A stretch of 64,000 nt of DNA. It comes from Seriola aureovittata. Taxonomy: Eukaryota > Chordata > Actinopteri > Carangiformes > Carangidae. The translations under genes were made by a program, and so were the position numbers. The notes beneath the pieces are model-generated. The model saw only the letters and a program-made list of their open reading frames with translations. It was not told where the DNA came from and ran no database searches. Of this stretch, positions 40,441 through 59,457 are shown in pieces; position 1 is the first letter of the stretch, and every line of letters begins with the position of its first letter. The stretch is taken from positions 14,635,856 to 14,699,855 of the forward strand of contig NC_079368.1 of assembly GCF_021018895.1 (NCBI RefSeq), written 5' to 3'.

Positions 40441-40929
40441 TGGTATATGTTCTTATAATAAAAATAAAAATGGAATTATCATTATTTTTCCAAAACTTTT
40501 TGCATTGTGCATTTTACTTTGCATTTTCATGGTCCCCAGAGGATTAAACCTACTGATTCTGGTGACCATTGACTTTTCCTCTACCGCCACCATGAGGGTT
40601 CACATTTTGGATTTTGAGTGAAATGTGTCTGGACTTTGATTGTCCAGTAAATTTGGTTCACAAATAATGTCAAGAAAAACTTGAATAACTTTGGTGACAA
40701 AATACCTGCAAAACTAATGACATCCAACAACATTAATGAAATTGCCTCACGTAAACTTGTGTTCAATTACCAAATCTTAGCATCCTAAAGATGGTTAATA
40801 TTGTAACTTTTATATCTACTTAGCATGTGTACATTGTTGTTGTGAATATATTAGCTTTCTGATGTTAGCATCGAGTTCAGTGCCTGTGTTTTTACATGTA
40901 TCTGGACACACACATTTAAAAATCAGTAT

Positions 40930-41002
40930 CGCCCGAACAGGGACTTGAACCCTGGACCCTCAGATTAAAAGTCTGATGCTCTACCGACTGAGCTATCCGG
41001 GC
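40930..41002 (-). tRNA. tRNA-Lys (anticodon TTT)
   Basis: The minus strand folds as a full cloverleaf: acceptor GCCCGGA pairs with TTCGGGC, D arm GCTC...GAGC, anticodon arm TCAGA-CTTTTAA-TCTGA with anticodon TTT, five-base variable loop, T arm CAGGG-TTCAAGT-CCCTG, and discriminator G. B-box GGTTCAAGTCC is intact. A TTTTT pol III terminator follows a few bases downstream (plus positions 40918-40922). It sits alone between sgsm1 and gatc. Confidence 0.97.
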
Positions 41003-41566
41003 GCTCGAAAGCGATTGTGGCTGGTTGTCAAATATAAAAAAAAAAAAAACCAATAGGACTGTAATTTATTTGAACGTTTATAGCTCTTTGATTTGTCGAA
41101 TACTCTTTCAACTAATTTGCAGGACGACCGTTATCACTTATAACAACCGCGCGCCTGAGCTAACGACGGCGTTTGATACATGAAACACCAGTTTCATAAT
41201 GCTATCAATGTCTTTCAAATACGTTTCAAATAGTATGTGTATGTTATACTTTTCTGAATTTTGCTAAGGAAAGTATTAAATATATAATAGAGCAGTACTA
41301 CCCAGTATTTAAGAAAAACACTCATTGTATTCAAACCTAAACGAATCAGTCTTATCTGGGACAACTGCGAAGAAGGAAGCTAGCGGAAGTTAAACCTCTC
41401 GCTTCCCCTGGGCTTCCGTAGATTCGTTACTTAGCTAGTCATGTGAAGCCAGTTTACATCCGAGCGCTGACCTTTCTGGTGAGTAAGTAAACATTAAGAC
41501 AATGTGACAGTGACACCAACCTTGTTCTACATCTCGGACATATCTGGCTAGCTAATTGCTCTGAAA

Positions 41567-43400: not shown

Positions 43401-43724
43401 TTATTTTTCAATTTGTAAGTATGTGTCAGATATGTCGGCTGGGGACAACACTTGGTCGTTTCACTGCTTATCTGCAGCCATAAACATCTGTCACAGAGCT
43501 TTGTCAGGTATACAGCAGGACCCACATGTTCTGGAACAGGAAAAGGATGTTTATTTTTTTCAGTTTCATGTGACGCCTGTGGTTTGTTTCAGTGTCAGTT
43601 TATAAAAATGCTGAGTCAACAGTGTGTTGGAGCAGAAGGTGTAATGAGGATATTCAATGCAATGGACGTACATACCTTTGATTTGTGATTTCATGTGTCT
43701 TGTTTTCTTCTTTCTTTCTTTTTT

Positions 43725-44441: not shown

Positions 44442-44921
44442 CACTGTCCCATAAAAAATACACACAGATCTGGCATGTACAGTTTCAAGATTCCCTAAAA
44501 CCACCATTTTCCTTGATTTGACCCACAGTGGTGGATCTGAAATCCATTTCAATAGATATGGGTCAAATTCGACCCGGAACAGCCTCAATGTAAAAACATT
44601 TGTAGCACCTGTACAAAAGTATACAATTTTAAAATATTTACATTCTTGTGTATTTTGAGTCACTTTAGGAAAAGTCGTCAAATTTCAGGCTAAAAGAATG
44701 ACATTTAGGGGAACAATCATATAGTCTTGTGTGGGTATCAGGCCGTTTATAGCCTTTCCTTATTAGAAATAGGCTATAGCCATGATTTGTTACATCTGTT
44801 TGTTAAAACTGTATTTATGAGGTAATAAACTCATAGGCTTGCCCTGGGGCAGTATCAATAATGATCATAACATTACAAGCCCTCGTTCCAGCTGACTGAT
44901 GTTAGGAGAATGGAAACCGAA

Positions 44922-44933
44922 AGTTATTACGGC
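44922..44933 (+). promoter_or_regulatory. ISRE of isg15 copy 1
   Basis: GGAAACCGAAAG matches the interferon-stimulated response element core GAAANNGAAA. It lies about 60 bp upstream of a TATA box, the standard layout for genes switched on by ISGF3 or IRF factors. Confidence 0.85.
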
Positions 44934-44992
44934 ATCGAAGGAAAAACGAATCTTACATGAGGGGGCGGGTGTTGATCAGCTGAGGCAGCCTC

Positions 44993-45000
44993 TATATAAA
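44993..45000 (+). promoter_or_regulatory. TATA box of isg15 copy 1
   Basis: TATATAAA, about 115 bp before the end of the untranslated first exon (donor at 45114). The spacing implies transcription starting near 45025. Confidence 0.8.
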
Positions 45001-45229
45001 CTGTGCTGAATTCAGACCTCAGGCACAACTACTGATCACCGCTTATTTAACAGTCGACGACTGAAGACTTGAAGTTTTCCGGAGGAGTTTCTTTTTATGA
45101 TTAGTGTCAAAAGGTAGGAGGCTCTCTTTAATGACGCTGTAGTGAAATATACTGTGATGATTTCAAATTGTTTTTCTACAGTAAACTTATTTTAAAATGT
45201 TTTGAATTGTCTTTCAGACAACTTTCAAC

Positions 45230-45694
45230 ATGGATATAATCATCACAATGCTGAGTGAGACCTACACCCTGACGGTGCAGCCGGGGGACACAGTTGGCTA
45301 CTTGAAAACAGTCATCCAACAGAGACTCGGAGTTCCCCCTTATAAGCAGAGGCTGGTGTTTGTCAACGGCCAGAGGATCGACCTCAGCGAGGACGCACAG
45401 ACAGTCAGCTACTACGGCCTGCAGTCTGGCTCCAGGGTGATGCTGCTGGTGACCGAGCCGGCCACCATCCAGGTGTTCCTGAGGAACGAGAAAGGGAAGT
45501 TGAGCACCTATGATATCAAACCTGACTTGACCGTTGACGAATTCAAGCGCAAGGTCGAGTGCAGAGAGTCGGTGCCGGTGAGCCAGCAGAGGCTGGTTTT
45601 CCAAGGCCGGGAGATGTCCGGCGGTAAACTGTCCGACTACAAAGTCGAAGCTCTGGGCACCATCGACCTGTGTCTCCGTCTGAGAGGAGGCTGA
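45230..45694 (+). CDS. isg15: ISG15 ubiquitin-like modifier, copy 1
   Basis: Interferon-induced ubiquitin-like protein that is conjugated to targets or released from cells in antiviral defence. Single coding exon, 154 aa, with two ubiquitin folds (about residues 1-76 and 79-154) joined by a short TEPAT linker, and a C-terminal LRLRGG conjugation motif. The stop codon follows GG directly, so no tail needs removing. A 5' UTR exon ends at 45113 (AAAAG|GTAGG), followed by a 104-bp intron (45114-45217); the ATG lies 12 nt into exon 2. This UTR-intron plus single-coding-exon plan is typical of ISG15. The coding sequence is identical to copy 2, while promoter, UTR and intron differ. Confidence 0.96.
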   Translation: MDIIITMLSETYTLTVQPGDTVGYLKTVIQQRLGVPPYKQRLVFVNGQRIDLSEDAQTVSYYGLQSGSRVMLLVTEPATIQVFLRNEKGKLSTYDIKPDLTVDEFKRKVECRESVPVSQQRLVFQGREMSGGKLSDYKVEALGTIDLCLRLRGG

Positions 45695-45984
45695 GGACAC
45701 TTTGACACTGTTAATACATTAGAAAGAAATGTGAATTATTTTATTTAATATAAACGGAGACATTTACATTTATTTTTAGAGATAACTATTTTTTTTAAAA
45801 AGCCCAAGCATTCCAATTGATGTTTATATCGTTATTATTTCCAAAACTTATGGTGTTTTATTTGGTCTTAATTCAGTATTTTTTGTAATACAAATATGTC
45901 ACAGCACTGAATGCACTATAATTTTATTGTGATAAATACATGTTGTTATTATGTTAACTGGGTATTGTTATGAATTAATTAATT

Positions 45985-45990
45985 AATAAA
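45985..45990 (+). terminator. Polyadenylation signal of isg15 copy 1
   Basis: AATAAA followed by GTCCCAAATG, about 290 bp after the stop. The same AATAAAGTCCCAAATG phrase follows copy 2. The 3' UTR between is AT-rich with several ATTTA motifs, as in unstable cytokine-type messages. Confidence 0.75.
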
Positions 45991-47246
45991 GTCCCAAATG
46001 TAAATTTACTTCATGTTTCCTGTGCCCTTCTTCAGCTCAGGGGTGGAGCTGTACACATCAGACTGAAACCACTAGGCTGAACAAAAATAAGGCTTACTTT
46101 AAGATTTCATATTTAAAAGTGGCATTGTTTTCAATATTTTACAGACACTTTCTCAATTATGTATTTCAAGGTTTATTACATCATTCAAGATTCTAACAGT
46201 GTTTATAAAACAATGCATTTAATACAAACTACATTTTAATAATGTTCTGTTATTACAAACAGTCATGTTTCCAATATAGAAGCATGTTAAAATGGCTTAA
46301 ACGCATCATACAGGTTTGTTAGGAGTTAATCAGAAGAGCTTGTCTGAAAGATACTCTGTTGTATTATCTCAGTTCTCACTGTTGTGCATTCACAAGCACC
46401 AGTGGACACTTGGTCAGTGCATCATTAAGTCAAGTAAACATGACTTTACTTTTTCTTTTGAATTTGTGTGAAAGAAAAAATAAATGCAGACACTGTTGTG
46501 ACAAAATTACCTCGAGATGTTTCACACAGGGCTTGAAAACAAGGATTTTCCATTGAGGCTCCTGCCAAAACAACTGTGAAACACTAACAACTTGAATTAG
46601 TTAGTCAAATGCAGTAAGAAAACATTTAAGAACAAGTCAGCACGAACTGCAGGCTGTACATATTGTGTAAAGCCTGTTTAATGAGACACTCAAGGAGACA
46701 AAACAGTAGTAATTAATAGTAATGGACATTTTTATTGGGAAAACTCACTCAAAATCCACTGAAAAAAAAAAACCTGCACACATCTGTCACATATGAAGCC
46801 AGAAGCCAGGATGTAAATTCTGACTCATTTCCTGCACCTCCCCTTGTGTTTGTATAAGACAATCAAGAAATAAAAACAACAAAGACATACTCCTCTTCAG
46901 GGGATGCAACAGAGGGCAATTTAATGTCAAATACAAATTATGTTTTAAATGATGTACCTGGGAGCTTTCCTGAGGTTTTCTATATGTATCCGACATCTTA
47001 GCATTTTGGTTGACTTAACTTAGACTGAAGGACAACATAGGGCTAGGTTCTTTCTTTTTTTGATGGAGAGCCAAAATAAAGTGTCGTGTACTGTCCACTC
47101 TCTCTCTTTTTTCAATATGCACAATGCACACGTGCACACACACATACACATACAGTATAAAGAGCCAGACTGGATGAGTGTTTCCCCATTGGCCGTAGTG
47201 CTTTCAAAACAGCCAACAGTTTCTGTCATCAGGGGGAATTTACAGG

Positions 47247-48050
47247 CAGTGTTGCCAACAGTGTTTGGCATGTTACCACCTTTGTCACTTGATTTACCGA
47301 CTTTTCAGACCCATTTAGTGGTTTTCTTTTCTCAACAAAATAAATAAATAAATAAATTAGCGACATATCTAGACTTTTTGGACATACTTACTTTCCGTAG
47401 AAGAGAGCAACCAGGTCTGGAATTGCTCATTAACATGTTGCCTCGTCTTAATGGGCTGCGTTTCAGTCACTATTTCATACTTCTCCCGTTGTCTGAGAAC
47501 AGAAACAGAAAAACATGTAAAAGATAACAGCTTTATTGGAAATGTAGCTTTATTGAAATGTATTATGTGCGAGCACAGAGAGTAGGACAGAAACAGACAA
47601 ACTAAGGGCTGAAACCAGCTGACACTCTGCAGGAAGCAAATAATGACTCATACAATTGTCGTATTACATCATCCAACAACATTCAGGGACCTTAAAAGCA
47701 GACTAGCGACTTTGCATAGATTGTTGTTGTTAAAGCAGTTGCACAAGAGTTTTCAACTTCATCCTCAATTTCACATATTGGCCATACATGGTCAAGCCAT
47801 ATAATTTTCAACCTGTGATTTTCATTCACCTCCTGAATTTATGGCAATAGCTTTCACTATGACATCAGAGCTCACCTGAGGGCCTGCCGCTCACCTGTCC
47901 TGTCCCTGTAACTCAGGCTGCGGCTGACAGGATTTTCAGAATAAAACGACGCATTAACAAACAAAGCTTGACAAGCTGTGGCTAATTTTCCTTATAAATA
48001 ATGTTCACATATTAACGCTTTTGATCCATTCATGGAAAGGAGGAGGGATG
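47247..48050 (-). mobile_element. Probable unclassified transposable element carrying a coding-like exon pair
   Basis: Minus-strand exon A ends at about 47876 (GCCCTCAG|GTGAGCT) and exon B spans 47492-47392 (acceptor TTCTGTTCTCAG, donor AAA|GTAAGT). Their phases join (AG|A) to give an open peptide including SLSYRDRTGERQALRQREK and TRQHVNEQFQTWLLSSTE. I do not recognise the family. The left edge carries CAGTGTTGCCAACAGTG and nearby AGCGACATATCTAG, phrases typical of a dispersed fish repeat, so I take this as transposon-derived. A host gene remnant is the alternative. Exon A start is unclear. Confidence 0.35.
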
Positions 48051-48455
48051 GCATTAAATTGTAAATATTTAGCCCACTAATTTGAAAGAAGATATGTCTT
48101 CTGTAGCCTTGGATTTTATGTATTTGCAGAGGAAGAGGAGTAAAAATCATTTGGTGCAAGGTAAGACAGCAGTCTGACTGTTTTCATATTTATACTGGTT
48201 TGTTATATAATTGGCAGGCTACGCAATAAATGGATGATACATTATCACTATAACAGATTTTAGTGTGGTGATTGGTAGCTGTCAGTCATAACTGATACAG
48301 CTCAAAAAGCAGCAGCTGGATGGATGGCTGGATCACTGGTGTTTACCTGTTGTTGAGTCTGATTTGTTTTCCCCATGAGTGAAAAAATGCCTAATTTCAT
48401 TGTCAGTCCTGCCCTGATTCAGTGTTGTATATTGCAGTCCTACAATTTATGTGCA

Positions 48456-49127
48456 CAGGGCCGCAGGAAGATGTTTTAAGTGGGGGGCGCTATAGTGGGA
48501 GGAGCATTTTACCCCGAACCCATACAAATACAACATAGGCCTACAACAATACTACTACACACACACACACACCAAAAACACAGCAGCAGTAACAACAACA
48601 GCAGCCAGGTCTACAAAAAAGGACTCAGTAATCCTATTGCACAATAATGGGTCAGTCCCAGCCTGACACAGCAGACTCCTCAATGGTGGTGGTGCTAACG
48701 CTGATACTCCAGCGGATGCCTGCGAAAATTTACAACCAAACGAAAATGATGGTGGTGGAGCTGCTCTCCTGCGAAGGCTGGACTTCATTTGTGCTTTCTT
48801 TAGCTGGTGGTTTGCCAAACAAATCTGCAATAATCTTTTCCTCCATTGTGATTTTATCCTTCAATTAGCTATCAAGGCTACAGCAGCCATATGTAAACTT
48901 ACGAACCCTACCTTAGAGATGACATGACTCACCCTACACTGCATCTGATTGGCCAATGATCGTTGCCTTGGTTGGTTGGATTGGTTAGGTTAAGGCATGA
49001 GGAGTGAGAACAGTTAGGGTCAAGGTAAGAAATCATTCTGAGGAGGAGCACACCGGGCCATGTCAACACTTTAAGAACATTATGCTCTCGCCACAAGGGG
49101 CACCTGCAGCACCCCTAGTTCCCGCTG
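48456..49127. mobile_element. Possible non-autonomous hAT-like element
   Basis: Starts CAGGGCCGCAGGAAG... with GGGGGGCGCTATAG, and ends ...GCACCCCTAGTTCCCGCTG, whose reverse complement starts CAGCGGGAACTAGGGGTG, resembling the CAG...GGGG termini of hAT-type elements in fish. The ends are only partly complementary and I see no clear 8-bp target duplication. It lies between the two duplicated units, just before the broken gatc exon. No intact transposase frame. Confidence 0.35.
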
Positions 49128-49418
49128 ATTTCACTGCAAAACAGCAGGAGTTTGGTGAAGCTGCAGGTATTAAGGCCTGGGGGAGTTGGTTTGTTGTCTT
49201 CTTAATGCACTCCTGTTTCTTTGCTTCATGGTATGAATAGTTAACCCTGTAGTCATCAGCAATGATTGACATGAGAATTTGGGCAGTAGAAATTGGTTTA
49301 GCAAGAAAATAATTTTGAATCAATTCTGTGAATCTCGCATAAGGATCATGATCCAACAGGTGCAACAGCTCCTCACAAAATTAGAAGCCCACTGTATGTT
49401 TTCTCCTTGCACATTCAG

Positions 49419-49500
49419 AGCTTTATACGAGAGGGGCAATGCAGTGATGTCTTCGAGGCAAAACCTTGGTCACTTCACTTCACTTGCTTATCTGCAGTGA
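49419..49500 (+). pseudogene. Broken copy of gatc exon 4
   Basis: After an intact-looking acceptor (CACATTCAG), the sequence encodes RALYERGNAVM, matching [11 protein letters not shown] of the functional gatc exon 4 (42881 onward). The match stops at about codon 11, and the sequence then jumps to a counterpart of 43445-43475, deleting the rest of exon 4, intron 4 and exon 5. No exon 1-3 copy is present upstream. It is therefore a non-functional by-product of the tandem duplication that created the second isg15. Confidence 0.85.
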
Positions 49501-50015
49501 AAAATAGATATAATAAACAAGAAAAATAAACAGCAGCTGGTAATTTATATTCATTTTTCATTTTCATTTGACAATCATGGTTCATTTTCCTTTTCAGTTT
49601 CAGTTTCAGTTCATAAAAATGGTGAGTGAGCAGTGTGTTGGGGTGTAGTGAGGATATTCAATGCAATGACAGTAGGTTACATTGTTTTGATATGTTTTGG
49701 CATTATGTTTTCCATATGCCCTGTTTTCATTCTTGTGTTAGCTTTTCTCCCTTTCTGTTTTGTTTCCATAATAAACTAAAAATAGACATCTGATGAAATG
49801 ATTAAGTATTTTCTTATAAGAACGAGACATTCCTGATTTGATCTTACATAACGGTGTCTACTGCTGCTTGTAGTCCAAACTAACATCTATTCATTCTCTG
49901 CCCCACCTGTTTGTTAAAGCTGTATAATGAGTAATAAACCCATAGGCTTGCCCAGTATCAATAATGATCATAACAAAACAAGCCCTCGTTTCAGCTGACT
50001 AATGTTAGGAGAATA

Positions 50016-50026
50016 GAAACCGAAAG
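50016..50026 (+). promoter_or_regulatory. ISRE of isg15 copy 2
   Basis: GAAACCGAAAG, the same ISRE core as copy 1, in the same position relative to the TATA box; only the base before it differs (TAGAAAC against TGGAAAC). The second copy thus keeps its interferon-response element. Confidence 0.85.
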
Positions 50027-50095
50027 TTATTACGGCACCGAAGGAAAAACGAATCTTACATGAGGGGGCGGGTGTTGATCAGCTGAGGCAGCCTG

Positions 50096-50103
50096 TATAT
50101 AAA
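50096..50103 (+). promoter_or_regulatory. TATA box of isg15 copy 2
   Basis: TATATAAA in a conserved position. The following 5' UTR lacks a stretch of roughly 25 bp found in copy 1 (CCGGAGGAGTTTCTTTTTAT region), so the two mRNAs can be told apart by their leaders. Confidence 0.8.
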
Positions 50104-50309
50104 CTGTGCTGAATTCAGACCTTAAGCACAACTACTGATCATCACTTGTTTAACAGTTCCCGACTGAAGACTTGAAGTTTCCTGTGTCAAAAGGTAGGAG
50201 GCTCTCTTTAATGACGCTGTAGTGAAATACACTGTGATGATTGTAAATTGTCTTCCTACAGTAAACTTATTTTAAATTGTTTTGAATTGTCTTTCAGACA
50301 ACTTTCAAC

Positions 50310-50774
50310 ATGGATATAATCATCACAATGCTGAGTGAGACCTACACCCTGACGGTGCAGCCGGGGGACACAGTTGGCTACTTGAAAACAGTCATCCAAC
50401 AGAGACTCGGAGTTCCCCCTTATAAGCAGAGGCTGGTGTTTGTCAACGGCCAGAGGATCGACCTCAGCGAGGACGCACAGACAGTCAGCTACTACGGCCT
50501 GCAGTCTGGCTCCAGGGTGATGCTGCTGGTGACCGAGCCGGCCACCATCCAGGTGTTCCTGAGGAACGAGAAAGGGAAGTTGAGCACCTATGATATCAAA
50601 CCTGACTTGACCGTTGACGAATTCAAGCGCAAGGTCGAGTGCAGAGAGTCGGTGCCGGTGAGCCAGCAGAGGCTGGTTTTCCAAGGCCGGGAGATGTCCG
50701 GCGGTAAACTGTCCGACTACAAAGTCGAAGCTCTGGGCACCATCGACCTGTGTCTCCGTCTGAGAGGAGGCTGA
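50310..50774 (+). CDS. isg15: ISG15 ubiquitin-like modifier, copy 2
   Basis: Second complete isg15, 154 aa, protein and coding DNA identical to copy 1 over 465 nt as far as I can read. Two ubiquitin-like domains and a terminal LRLRGG with no extension. The 5' UTR exon ends at 50193; a 104-bp intron (50194-50297) precedes the coding exon, with several substitutions relative to the copy 1 intron. Its own ISRE and TATA box indicate it is transcribed. It lies tail to tail with pxmp2, about 0.9 kb away. Identity restricted to the coding exon and its immediate edges points to recent gene conversion rather than simple recent duplication. An assembly error is less likely because the flanks differ. 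Confidence 0.96.
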   Translation: MDIIITMLSETYTLTVQPGDTVGYLKTVIQQRLGVPPYKQRLVFVNGQRIDLSEDAQTVSYYGLQSGSRVMLLVTEPATIQVFLRNEKGKLSTYDIKPDLTVDEFKRKVECRESVPVSQQRLVFQGREMSGGKLSDYKVEALGTIDLCLRLRGG

Positions 50775-51115
50775 GGACACTTTGACACTGTTAATACATT
50801 AGGCTGAGGACACTTTCATTCATGGAAAAGATACCATAAAGTTAATATAAATTATTTTATTGTAATTGTGTGAAAACAAAGCAACATGCTTGTTTATTTT
50901 TATTATTTTGAAAAATGTATAATGTATAAGGATTATAATGATAATGTTAAATCAGGACCAATGTCATGTAATTCTTTTAATTTTATTTAAAACGTTTTAT
51001 TTATTTTTTTACTATGTAATTCTGTATTCTGGTAATACAGTTATGATCGTTACAGAGTTTTAAATTGACAAATACAACATGGTGTAAATGTGTTAACTGG
51101 ACACTTTAAAACCAC

Positions 51116-51121
51116 AATAAA
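51116..51121 (+). terminator. Polyadenylation signal of isg15 copy 2
   Basis: AATAAA followed by GTCCCAAATG, as in copy 1, about 340 bp after the stop. The intervening 3' UTR is largely different from that of copy 1 beyond the first 30 bp. Confidence 0.75.
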
Positions 51122-51634
51122 GTCCCAAATGTGATTTTACATTTCTCATTTCCATTACCTTTCTTGGGCTCAGGGGTGGAGCTGTACCCATATAGACCAC
51201 AAGACAATACAGGCACACTTTAACATTGCATCATTAAAACTGACATTATTTCAATGTTTAAAAGAGCCTATCAGTCATATAATTTAAGAATTACTATAAC
51301 ATCTTATGAGATTTTGGCATTGCTCTGTAAAAGAATAAATTTATTACAAACTACATTTAATCATGTTCAGTTATTACAAACAGTCACGTTTCCAAAATAT
51401 CATAGCAGCATGTTATAATGGCTTAAACTCATTTTATAGGTTTGTTAGGAATTAATCAGAAGAGCTACTGTATGTGAAAACTGCTGTCCAGATTAGGAAC
51501 AGGTTTACAGTCATACACTAAACAGCCTGTTTGTATTATCTCAGTTCTCTGGCATTCACAAGCATTGCCACAATGCCACAGTGAAGAAGTAGTTTCCTCC
51601 AGATTTGTTTTCTGTGAAGACATCTTCATAAGAA

Positions 51635-55493: not shown

Positions 55494-57775
55494 TTAAAGT
55501 GCCTTCCAGTCAATGGGAGACTTTCCAGATTTCTCTAGCAGCTCGTTGGCCTTTGAAAAATGCCTGCACCCAAAGAATCCACGATGAGCAGACAAGGGAG
55601 AGGGATGCACAGCCTGCAGCACATGGTGGCGTTTCTATAAACGGAGTGAGTGAACATTTAGATATGTGAACGCAATAAAAAGCTTCTGTAAAGTGTGAAA
55701 GTGTTTGCATGAAATAAAATGACAGTGCAAACCCACCCTGTTGATAGCAGCTCCTTTCTTCTGAGCATATGACCCCCACAGCATGAAGACGAGGCCCTCC
55801 AGGTTGTTGCTGAGCCACTGCACCACGGCGTCAGTGAAGGTCTCCCAGCCTTTGTCTTTGTGCGAGTTGGCCTGGTGCGCTCGGACGGTCAACACAGCGT
55901 TGAGCAACAACACCCCTGATGAACGAGGTCACAGATGGAGAGGATGGCAGGTCTGTTAATGACCAACAGCTCTTTTGTTGTGTAACTGTGTGTAAACATT
56001 CAACAGACTGCTTTTTAAAAAGTACCTTGTTTGGCCCATTCAGTCAGATCTCCATGTCCAGGGTGCTGGAAGCCTTCAATATCTGACGCCAGTTCTTTAT
56101 ACATGTTCTCCAAACTGGAAATGAACAGAAGCAAGGCTGTGATAAATATGTCAACAGAATGATTCATGAGCACTATCTGATTTTTGAGTTTTTAAGAGAA
56201 ATAACTAGGTCACAAACAAGAGTTGAAAAAGAGAGACTGAAAAGGCTTTGAACCTGGGTGGAGGATGTACTGGTCTTTTGACACTGAAGCACAGGCCATG
56301 GGCTTGGTTAGGGCCATGATACGGATCCTGGCCAAGGATCACCACTTTGACCTGGAGGTAGAGACAGATCTTAAAGTGAGGCGACTGAGACAGTTCATAC
56401 TACTCTCGTGAAAAAGTCAGCTAATGCACCAAAACCTATTTTATAAAGAAAGGTAATACCCACACAACAGACAATTCTGTGCCACTAAACCCTAAATTTG
56501 CTCATGGTAACTCAAATAAAAACAGAAAGAAGGTCGAAACATTTTTCCCAGTCCCAAGCAGCCACTGGTTTCTGGTCATTTGGCACACATTTAAAACTTG
56601 CTTGAGGACTATAATCCACCACAGAGAACATAAAAGTCTGCTTTAATTTTTTGTCAATATTGGTATGATGTATTTCAGTGGCCCGCCTTACTTAATAACA
56701 ATAATGTGACTTTTACCATAAAGGCAGATTGTAATTTTATTTTTTTTTAAGGTTTCTGTTAATACATTTTCACCTAACCATATAGAAATTAATATAAACC
56801 CTGCAATTGGTATTTAGTGGTTATGATCTGATTGGTCTCCTGGCTGATCTCTTATTACTTCTGCTGTTGTTGTCACTGCCACATTTTGCAGGGCAAGGTG
56901 TGATACAGTGTTTGCAGCCTTGGAAGTTGTGTCATATGTCACAGTGTCAGAGCTATTTCACTTACATCTCTGATGTCACACGTCTGTGTCCAGGTGAAGA
57001 CATGTTCAGCAGGTGGGTACACAGTGTGGCGTTTCCTCTCTTCAGAAACAAAATTCATCAACTGTGACAGAAATATGAAGTTATTACAAAAGGTTCAAAA
57101 CCATAAAGAGACACCACGTGCTGTGATGAATTGTCTTCTCACTTGTTTAAAATAAGCCTTCCCAAACTCTGCAGACAGCCCTTTCCTCCAGCTCTCCCCG
57201 AAACCTGGAGGTGTATGAGCGGAAGCGAGTTTCTCAAGCGCTGCTCTCTTGTTGCGGGCGATCTTGTCCAGCTGCTCCGGGGACAGAGGGTTAGGAGGAG
57301 GACCGGACGGCTTCGACTCCACCGCTGAGGGCTTCGGCTTCTTCTGCACAATTTTAGTGTATTGAGCAAAGTACAGAGCAGGTGAGAAGCGGGCAGCTAG
57401 AGGTGCAACAGGCGTCAGAAACCGTCCACAGTGGCGTGCAAACATTCTCGTGCAGTGGAAACTCGGAGAACCACTTTCAATAACAAGCAAAAACACAGTG
57501 GTGATTGTGAACGCAGCCTGGATTACGCTGCGCGTGTCGCGGGAAATGATAAATCCGTTTGAAATACTACTGCAAGTACACTGTAAGTGGAGTTTAAATT
57601 AAAATAACGTTGTGTTTTAACATTACAAGCTAAGCATGTTGTTAATGTTAGCTACATGAGGCAAAGGGGCACTCACCGGGTCTTTAGCATCCTCCTCGGT
57701 TTCATTTAACTCCTTAGAAATCCTTTTTTTCGAGACGGGCGAAAAAAAAGAATGAATAGTTTTCTGTCCAATCAT
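55494..57775 (-). CDS. ung: Uracil-DNA glycosylase (nuclear isoform; mitochondrial start included)
   Basis: Cuts uracil from DNA to begin base-excision repair. Minus-strand exons: 57775-57677, 57343-57143, 57061-56966, 56351-56254, 56114-56026, 55915-55737, 55634-55494; 903 nt, 300 aa. The nuclear form starts [11 protein letters not shown], a PCNA-binding PIP box (Q-x-x-I-x-x-F-F). Catalytic water-activating motif GQDPYHG with D141 and Y143; HPSPLS with catalytic H264; uracil-pocket and minor-groove regions [10 protein letters not shown] and AQKKG intact. The second exon can also be read from a Met at 57445 without splicing at 57343, adding 34 basic, mitochondrial-type residues ([20 protein letters not shown]...). 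This reproduces the human UNG1/UNG2 arrangement, where the nuclear exon splices into the body of the mitochondrial first exon. Divergent from alkbh2. Confidence 0.96.
57344..57445 (-). CDS. ung: Mitochondrial-specific first-exon segment of ung
   Basis: Thirty-four codons from the Met at 57445 run straight into the shared exon, whose acceptor (TTGTGCAG) lies at the end of this segment. Composition (Arg, Ala, Ser, Phe, almost no acidic residue) fits an import presequence. An in-frame upstream Met at 57496 could add 17 residues. The splice-into-exon design means promoter choice decides the compartment. Inferred from structure; no transcript seen. Confidence 0.75.
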
Positions 57776-58487: not shown

Positions 58488-59457
58488 ATGGAAAGCTTCT
58501 TGATTCCGGGACAGAAGAAACGCTCCTGTACCAGTGATGCCCTCACAAGAAGTCCAAGGAAGAAGATTAAACTGGAGAAAGATGAGAGGATGAAGGAAGA
58601 GAAGGATGAAGTAGATGAAGATTCAGCTTTAGCAGAGTTCTCTCTTCCTGTTCCCTGGCAAAAAATAGAGGCAGAGGGACTAGACTGTGATTATGCCTTA
58701 CTCTTCGCCAAAGAAGAAGCAGACCGACTCTTTAAACAGTTGGAGAATGAGGTGGTGTACTCAACAGGTACAGCATCAACCCCTTTTAATTTTTAATTAA
58801 TTTTTTTCAAAGTTATGACCAGAAGTTGCAGTGCTGCTGAGCAATTGTGGCTGTTTCTGTTCCAGGAGAAGAAGCAAAGGTCCAGGTGTTTGGAAAGGTG
58901 TACAGTATACCAAGAAAGCAGGCGACATACGGAGATGCAGGTCTAACCTACACTTATTCTGGGGTGACACGTTCAGCCTGCCCGTGGACTCCAACCTTGG
59001 AATCCATTCGAGATGCTGTCACAAAAACCACAGGACAGACGTTCAACTTTGTCTTGGTCAACAGGTGAGAAATTACCGAGTACAAGCTTGTAAAGGTCAC
59101 AGCTTGATGAATCTCCCTGCTGAAAGTGTTCTTCGATCATGCACCAGGTACAAAGATGGGCAGGATCACATGGGTGAGCATCGTGATGATGAAAAGGAGC
59201 TAGATCCCCTCTGTCCCATCGCTTCTGTCTCTCTGGGAGCAGCACGAGACTTCATCTTCAGGCACAGAGATGCTCGGGGAAAACAGAGCTGCAGACAGAT
59301 TGAACCTGTGAAACTGGAACTCGCTCATGGGAGCCTGCTCCTCATGAACCCACCGACCAACACTTTTTGGTACCACAGCCTTCCTGTGCGCAAGAAAGTC
59401 CTACTGCCTCGCATCAACCTCACTTTTAGACGCATCGTACTGGCCAGCAAGAAATGA
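58488..59457 (+). CDS. alkbh2: DNA oxidative demethylase ALKBH2
   Basis: Fe(II)/2-oxoglutarate dioxygenase that reverses 1-methyladenine and 3-methylcytosine in double-stranded DNA. Three coding exons: 58488-58767, 58866-59064, 59148-59457; 789 nt, 262 aa. Iron ligands H171, D173 (EHRDDEKE) and H236 (WYHSLPVRK) and the 2-oxoglutarate arginines R248 and R254 (RINLTFR) fall at the same numbers as in the human enzyme. The base-flipping finger V101-F102-G103 is intact. A 5' UTR splice acceptor at 58462-58463 (CCCCTCAG) precedes the start. The N-terminal PCNA-contact motif is altered (FLI kept, flanking basic residues lost). The N-terminal region is Lys-rich (SPRKKIKLEK), suiting nuclear import. 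Divergent from ung. Confidence 0.96.

Follow-up and report, generated by a model that had tools for sequence, protein, structure and literature searches.

Two isg15 genes lie in tandem on the forward strand of a 64,000-nt stretch of the Seriola aureovittata genome (positions 14,635,856 to 14,699,855 of contig NC_079368.1; here called the window), and they are identical over a tract that takes in their entire coding sequence, between flanks that have diverged to very different degrees. We consider it likely that they form an old pair that has been homogenized at least twice by interlocus gene conversion, most recently from the upstream gene (copy 1) to the downstream gene (copy 2). Interlocus conversion within a tandem pair is an already known kind of event; what is worth following in this pair is its layered history, the apparent remnant of a stop-codon context that would give the latest exchange a direction, and what looks like domain-wise exchange among the paralogues of related fishes.

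Each copy comprises an untranslated first exon, a 104-bp intron and a single coding exon, and both encode the same 154-residue protein from 465 nt, stop codon included. The tandem ubiquitin-like domains of ISG15 (UBL1 and UBL2) were recovered as two stretches matching Pfam PF00240 (E = 8.9e-30), the C-terminal conjugation motif LRLRGG is present in copy 1 and copy 2, and the named proteins closest to the window protein in a public collection clustered at 90% were fish ISG15. The closest protein found, from Seriola dumerili, is 93% identical and differs at 11 of 154 residues. Conjugation of the product to other proteins (ISGylation) is predicted. An open frame of 180 residues also runs antisense over each coding exon (Table 1); these two frames are probably a by-product of codon use, the G+C content at third codon positions (GC3) being 0.76.

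The maximal identical tract measures 525 bp and extends from the final 20 bp of the intron to 28 bp past the stop codon. A first-pass annotation of the sequence had described the coding exons as identical base for base, with identity beginning near the 3' end of the intron and ending just after the stop codon, and both statements were borne out by alignment, in which 0 of 465 coding positions differ (Kimura two-parameter distance [K80] of 0). On the 5' side, differences are found at 14 of 213 positions in the flank and promoter (93.4% identity; K80, 0.069), at 10 of 77 in exon 1 (87.0%; K80, 0.146), which also contains a single 23-bp length difference, and at 6 of 105 in the intron (94.3%; K80, 0.060), the intron count extending one base, unchanged, past the true intron end at 45217. 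Beyond the tract, 111 of 277 positions differ in the 3' untranslated region (3' UTR; 59.9%; K80, 0.58) and 74 of 319 in the 3' flank (76.8%; K80, 0.28). The annotation had thus correctly noted several intron substitutions and the early divergence of the 3' UTRs, while its estimate that the copy 2 leader lacks about 25 bp can be refined to 23 bp; the base-by-base alignment that it had proposed as a check revealed identity that falls in steps, from 100% in the coding exon to 93 to 94% in promoter and intron and to approximately 60 to 77% beyond the tract on the 3' side.

None of approximately 158 putatively neutral sites in the tract has changed, compared with 30 of 374 from promoter to intron (Fisher p = 3.6e-5) and 6 of 84 in the intron alone (Fisher p = 1.6e-3); if these sites changed at the rate of the intron, a complete lack of change would have a probability of about 8e-5, or of 2e-5 if they changed at that of the promoter. 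Identity within the tract is as complete at putatively neutral sites as at selected ones, with no change at 109.3 synonymous sites. The identity of the tract exceeds what the surrounding divergence allows, a pattern expected of interlocus gene conversion. The intron, in turn, is much closer between the copies than are the 3' UTR (p = 1.7e-12) and the 3' flank (p = 2.3e-5). Because intron and promoter are too clean for a pair with 3' flanks so old, and the tract is too clean for intron and promoter, we regard the pair as old and its homogenization as layered, with more than one round. The first-pass annotation had argued that synonymous sites should differ as much as the introns if the copies had simply aged together. 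Changes expected at the intron rate are indeed missing from the tract, but the intron does not date the pair cleanly, having itself, like the promoter, undergone earlier homogenization. The proposal in the annotation that a recent conversion tract covers the coding exon remains the best account of the data.

The 3' edge of the tract suggests how the latest event ended. Immediately past it, copy 2 repeats the 14-nt sequence GCTGAGGACACTTT, which is found three times in the window, at both stop codons and at this join. From 50803 onward, copy 2 aligns with the stop region of copy 1 with a score of 59 over 60 nt, whereas its alignment with the post-tract sequence of copy 1 scores 30, shuffled sequences giving 23.9 ± 4.4. 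Judged from the sequence, the repeat is probably a remnant of the former stop region of copy 2, and the tract probably ends, on its 3' side, in a non-homologous join, with a 2-nt AG match to the inferred old sequence, and not in a smooth homologous edge. On this reading, copy 1 would be the donor and copy 2 the recipient. A plain 33-bp tandem duplication within copy 2 was rejected on the alignment, in which the second unit runs into the native, diverged 3' UTR of copy 2, and unequal crossing-over was rejected by reasoning, since it alters copy number and cannot set an identical exon between diverged flanks.

From the observed tract, layers, repeat and alignment we infer a direction, a repair path and an age for the conversion. 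An earlier round, in a pair with 3' flanks at 0.28 to 0.58 substitutions per site, would still be visible as the divergence of approximately 6 to 7% across promoter and intron. In the recent event, at least 45198 to 45722 would have been transferred from copy 1 to copy 2: a broken copy 2 would have invaded copy 1 by way of the 5' half, where the two match well, synthesis would have crossed the coding exon and 28 bp of the copy 1 3' UTR, and the new end would have been joined, not annealed, to the old sequence of copy 2 at its former stop codon, leaving the GCTGAGGACACTTT remnant behind. We suggest a homologous start on the left and end joining on the right because the copies match well on the left and share only 60% identity in the 3' UTR. 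The outcome would be one modifier driven by two separately regulated promoters and leaders. In Drosophila gap repair, strand annealing that is aborted and then completed by end joining is reported to be common (PMC3962482); that system shares with ours a homologous start of synthesis and a non-homologous finish, but there the break was induced in an assay, whereas the isg15 case is drawn from one junction. Gene conversion and concerted evolution of tandem duplicates (PMC3924832, PMC3966223) similarly leave paralogues that are identical over a bounded tract with diverged flanks; the isg15 tract is distinguished in that it covers the whole gene body of an interferon-induced modifier and has a 3' edge resembling a non-homologous join.

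Among percomorphs, isg15 paralogues seem to have exchanged domains repeatedly, several of the entries concerned being predicted models. We compared 93 sequences, consisting of the window protein and 92 database proteins hand-picked for carrying species names, and found that UBL1 is in most cases the less conserved of the two domains (mean identity of UBL1 minus that of UBL2, -8.1 points across 4278 pairs). A reversal of at least 20 points was seen in 9 pairs only, 6 of them from the same species, 2 from the same genus and 1 from the same family. Trachinotus ovatus and T. anak, a pair from two species, are 100% identical in UBL1 and 67% identical in UBL2; the corresponding values for two Scomber scombrus proteins are 100% and 57%, some scombrid names being predicted isoforms and models of tandem genes being in some cases possibly chimeric. 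A B class of proteins, defined by QFRL or a near variant after the sequences had been viewed, comprises 7 of 171 proteins, and the tree tests are post hoc. In a UBL2 tree of 34 hand-chosen rows, the seven B-class domains (T. anak, two Scomber, two Thunnus and two unnamed) were united with support of 99/95, and a group of Trachinotus A and B was rejected (p value of the approximately unbiased test [p-AU], 0.0225). The UBL1 tree rejected the B-class group (p-AU, 0.0004). Of its seven members, this tree grouped three firmly with conspecific or congeneric A-class proteins (through identity in two cases and starred support in the third) and one weakly, and it gave the other three no resolved place. 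In some percomorphs, UBL1 of the paralogues accordingly goes with the species and the B-class UBL2 with the paralogue. A break-point scan of 23 hand-chosen pairs, 19 of them within one species (pairs from Labrus bergylta, kept in the 93-sequence set, were excluded), gave a significant break in 12 of those 19 pairs, often close to where UBL2 begins, and none in the other 7; the left part was the more alike at seven of the significant breaks, and at five the relation was the other way, with UBL2 more alike than UBL1.

The pair from Lates, cloned as cDNA, is the one case taken from a paper: in Lates calcarifer, ISG15A and ISG15B lie close together, with identical UBL1 domains and UBL2 domains that are 62% identical (PMC9680060). 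These genes resemble the window pair in being adjacent, in having one short 5' UTR intron each and in carrying an interferon-stimulated response element (ISRE), in the window copies a putative one, upstream of the start codon; they differ in the divergence of UBL2 and in a 10-residue extension on B, whereas the window copies are identical in both domains and neither is extended. The word "conversion" is absent from the main text of that report. In Atlantic salmon, isg15 copies are likewise clustered, with two on chromosome 20 and four on chromosome 24, and the word "conversion" does not occur in the main text of the report (PMC13030082). Among the matches listed from the open-licence literature, with titles and abstract openings, no title concerned isg15 gene conversion; one lumpfish paper contains the phrase only in the title of a reference. 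A number of fish ISG15 proteins (P0008, P0081, P0114 and P0022) run past LRLRGG, for example with WGHFDLADISDG in Scomber scombrus and GHF in Sciaenops, and the window 3' UTR just past the stop codon also translates as GHF; these extensions look like gains and losses of stop codons on one old tail.

Genome searches returned the two isg15 genes and otherwise only ubiquitin repeats. No further copy that could act as a donor was found in the S. aureovittata genome, and a search of it with the copy 2 3' flank found no additional copy; a search of viral contigs for relatives gave 10 pattern matches, none of which was a relative. Both window copies are of the A class, and the pair is not of the two-class A/B kind seen in Trachinotus and scombrids. 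A B-class UBL2 was not found in the genome, where the T. anak B protein used as query retrieved the two isg15 copies at 64% and ubiquitin repeats at 45 to 46%. Because of this absence and the old 3' flanks, copy 2 may be read as an overwritten B gene, a possibility that we put forward tentatively and with some doubt. Copy 2 would formerly have belonged to the B class, conversion from copy 1 would have overwritten UBL2 as far as the stop codon, and the doubled GCTGAGGACACTTT would mark the end of the lost gene. Percomorph ISG15 would then consist of two cassettes, a UBL1 (with promoter and leader) homogenized time and again between tandem paralogues and a UBL2 whose A and B forms are kept apart by selection, with exchange halting at the UBL2 start; in S. 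aureovittata this barrier would have been breached and two modifiers exchanged for one under two promoters. Alternatively, a B gene may have been lost in another way, or the pair may never have had one.

Several points weigh against repeated conversion with copy 1 as the latest donor. When four-fold sites and noncoding bases only are counted, the probability of no change in the tract is about 7e-4 at the intron rate, a weaker figure; synonymous sites may not be wholly neutral, given the GC3 value; the direction hangs on a single junction; and the 12-mer CATTCATGGAAA just 3' of the remnant recurs at 48027, so that a templated insertion may be an alternative origin of the join. The genome assembly, 647 Mb in 31 contigs, suggests long reads without proving them, and this bears on whether the coding exons differ in the animal and the assembly set copy 1 sequence into copy 2 through a collapse or in filling a gap. 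Exact identity with an abrupt, repeated join could be the trace of a bad gap fill, and the S. dumerili protein derives from a 746-base contig, a possible sign that assemblies break at this locus where the copies are identical. We nevertheless think such an artefact quite unlikely: the contig number speaks for long reads, the window contains no N, the flanks of the two copies are distinct and well resolved, and genome searches gave neither a third fragment of the gene nor a second haplotype. Conversion in the reverse direction, from copy 2 to copy 1, has in its favour that no outgroup fixes the direction, but it needs a doubled stop context already present in copy 2 and a tract end coinciding exactly with the repeat boundary. 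In addition, the post-stop readthrough of copy 1 (GHFDTVNTL) seems, over a short match, to resemble the RGDTVDTAGI extension of an A-type protein of Solea, as it would if native to copy 1. We regard the reverse direction as unlikely; if copy 1 was the donor, copy 2 of non-converted relatives should have GCTGAGGACACTTT followed by CATTCATGG-like sequence right after the stop codon, and the presence of GACACTGTTAATACATTAG after the stop codon in copy 1, and not copy 2, of a sister species would fit the same donor.

Purifying selection could in principle hold the two coding exons identical without conversion, and the coding sequence is conserved in relatives, UBL2 above UBL1. Selection is not the whole cause, however, because the tract holds intron, 3' UTR and synonymous sites that are equally unchanged and because the protein itself, with 11 of 154 residues unlike those of S. 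dumerili, is not frozen; the 3' edge is, moreover, sharp, and the stop context is repeated. Selection alone is thus extremely improbable; the first-pass annotation had offered, as its second reading, strong purifying selection combined with conversion. A recent duplication of an A gene, with copy 2 young and its flanks acquired from elsewhere, would account for the identical coding DNA, and in its favour the B class was not found in the genome. We hold it to be very unlikely, since a promoter and intron at 93 to 94% beside an identical exon imply more than one event and since homologous 3' flanks of 60 to 77% identity run colinear for approximately 600 bp in both copies.

The two genes contrast in the sequence of their promoters and leaders. 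Both promoters contain GAAACCGAAAGTT, a motif match that we take to be of the ISRE type, at 44913 in copy 1 and 50016 in copy 2 (317 and 294 bp before the ATG), together with what are presumably a GC box and a TATA box (44962 and 44993 in copy 1; TATA at 50096 in copy 2). The 23 bp that are present only in the copy 1 leader include an upstream ATG at 45097, absent from copy 2, which opens a 12-codon frame (MISVKRQLSTWI) overlapping the main start codon in another frame; under the Kozak rule, the context of this ATG is weak and that of the main start strong. A motif scan also detected a cluster of overlapping inverted ISRE-like repeats before copy 2 (Table 1) and no such cluster at the matching place before copy 1, with a lone TTTCAGTTTC at 43558.

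Table 1. Features of the isg15 pair and of its surroundings in the window
Feature	Position	Strand	Basis or remark
Copy 1 5' flank and promoter	44793..45013	+	Homologous block begins here; alignment, motif scan
Copy 1 exon 1, untranslated, 5' end approximate	45014..45113	+	Predicted from sequence
Copy 1 intron, GT..AG, 104 bp	45114..45217	+	Last 20 bp within identical tract
Copy 1 isg15 coding sequence, 154 residues	45230..45694	+	
Copy 1 identical tract, putative donor	45198..45722	+	
Copy 1 diverged 3' UTR (AATAAA at 45985) and 3' flank	45723..46345	+	Alignment, motif scan
TTTCCTTTTCAGTTTCAGTTTC, overlapping inverted ISRE-like repeats (TTTCNNTTTC cluster)	49586..49607	+	About 0.7 kb upstream of copy 2 start codon; motif scan
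Copy 2 5' flank and promoter	49904..50116	+	Alignment, motif scan
Copy 2 exon 1, 5' end approximate, 23 bp shorter	50117..50193	+	Alignment
Copy 2 intron, 104 bp	50194..50297	+	
Copy 2 isg15 coding sequence, same as copy 1	50310..50774	+	
Copy 2 identical tract, putative recipient	50278..50802	+	
GCTGAGGACACTTT, second stop-codon context, probable remnant of former stop region of copy 2	50803..50816	+	
Copy 2 native 3' UTR (AATAAA at 51116) and 3' flank	50817..51466	+	Alignment, motif scan
Antisense open frame over copy 1 coding exon	45176..45718	-	
Antisense open frame over copy 2 coding exon	50256..50798	-	
tRNA-Lys gene (anticodon TTT)	40929..41003	-	ARAGORN and Rfam
Reading frame, presumably start of a uracil-DNA glycosylase	57095..57598	-	
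Reading frame with 2OG-Fe(II) oxygenase domain	58819..59457	+	Pfam PF13532

Elsewhere in the window lie a tRNA-Lys gene, an oxygenase-domain reading frame that we take to be ALKBH2-like and, on the reverse strand, a frame that to us resembles the start of uracil-DNA glycosylase and gave no Pfam match.

ISG15 is a central interferon effector, and its paralogues in fish are often treated as independent; conversion of whole domains, if true, affects gene trees, ratios of nonsynonymous to synonymous substitution (dN/dS), primers and knock-outs. The remnant-stop join would give the conversion a direction, which is rarely visible. If the UBL2 classes are indeed held apart while UBL1 is shared, these genes would show, as a natural experiment, in which of its two halves the modifier has functions specific to each paralogue.

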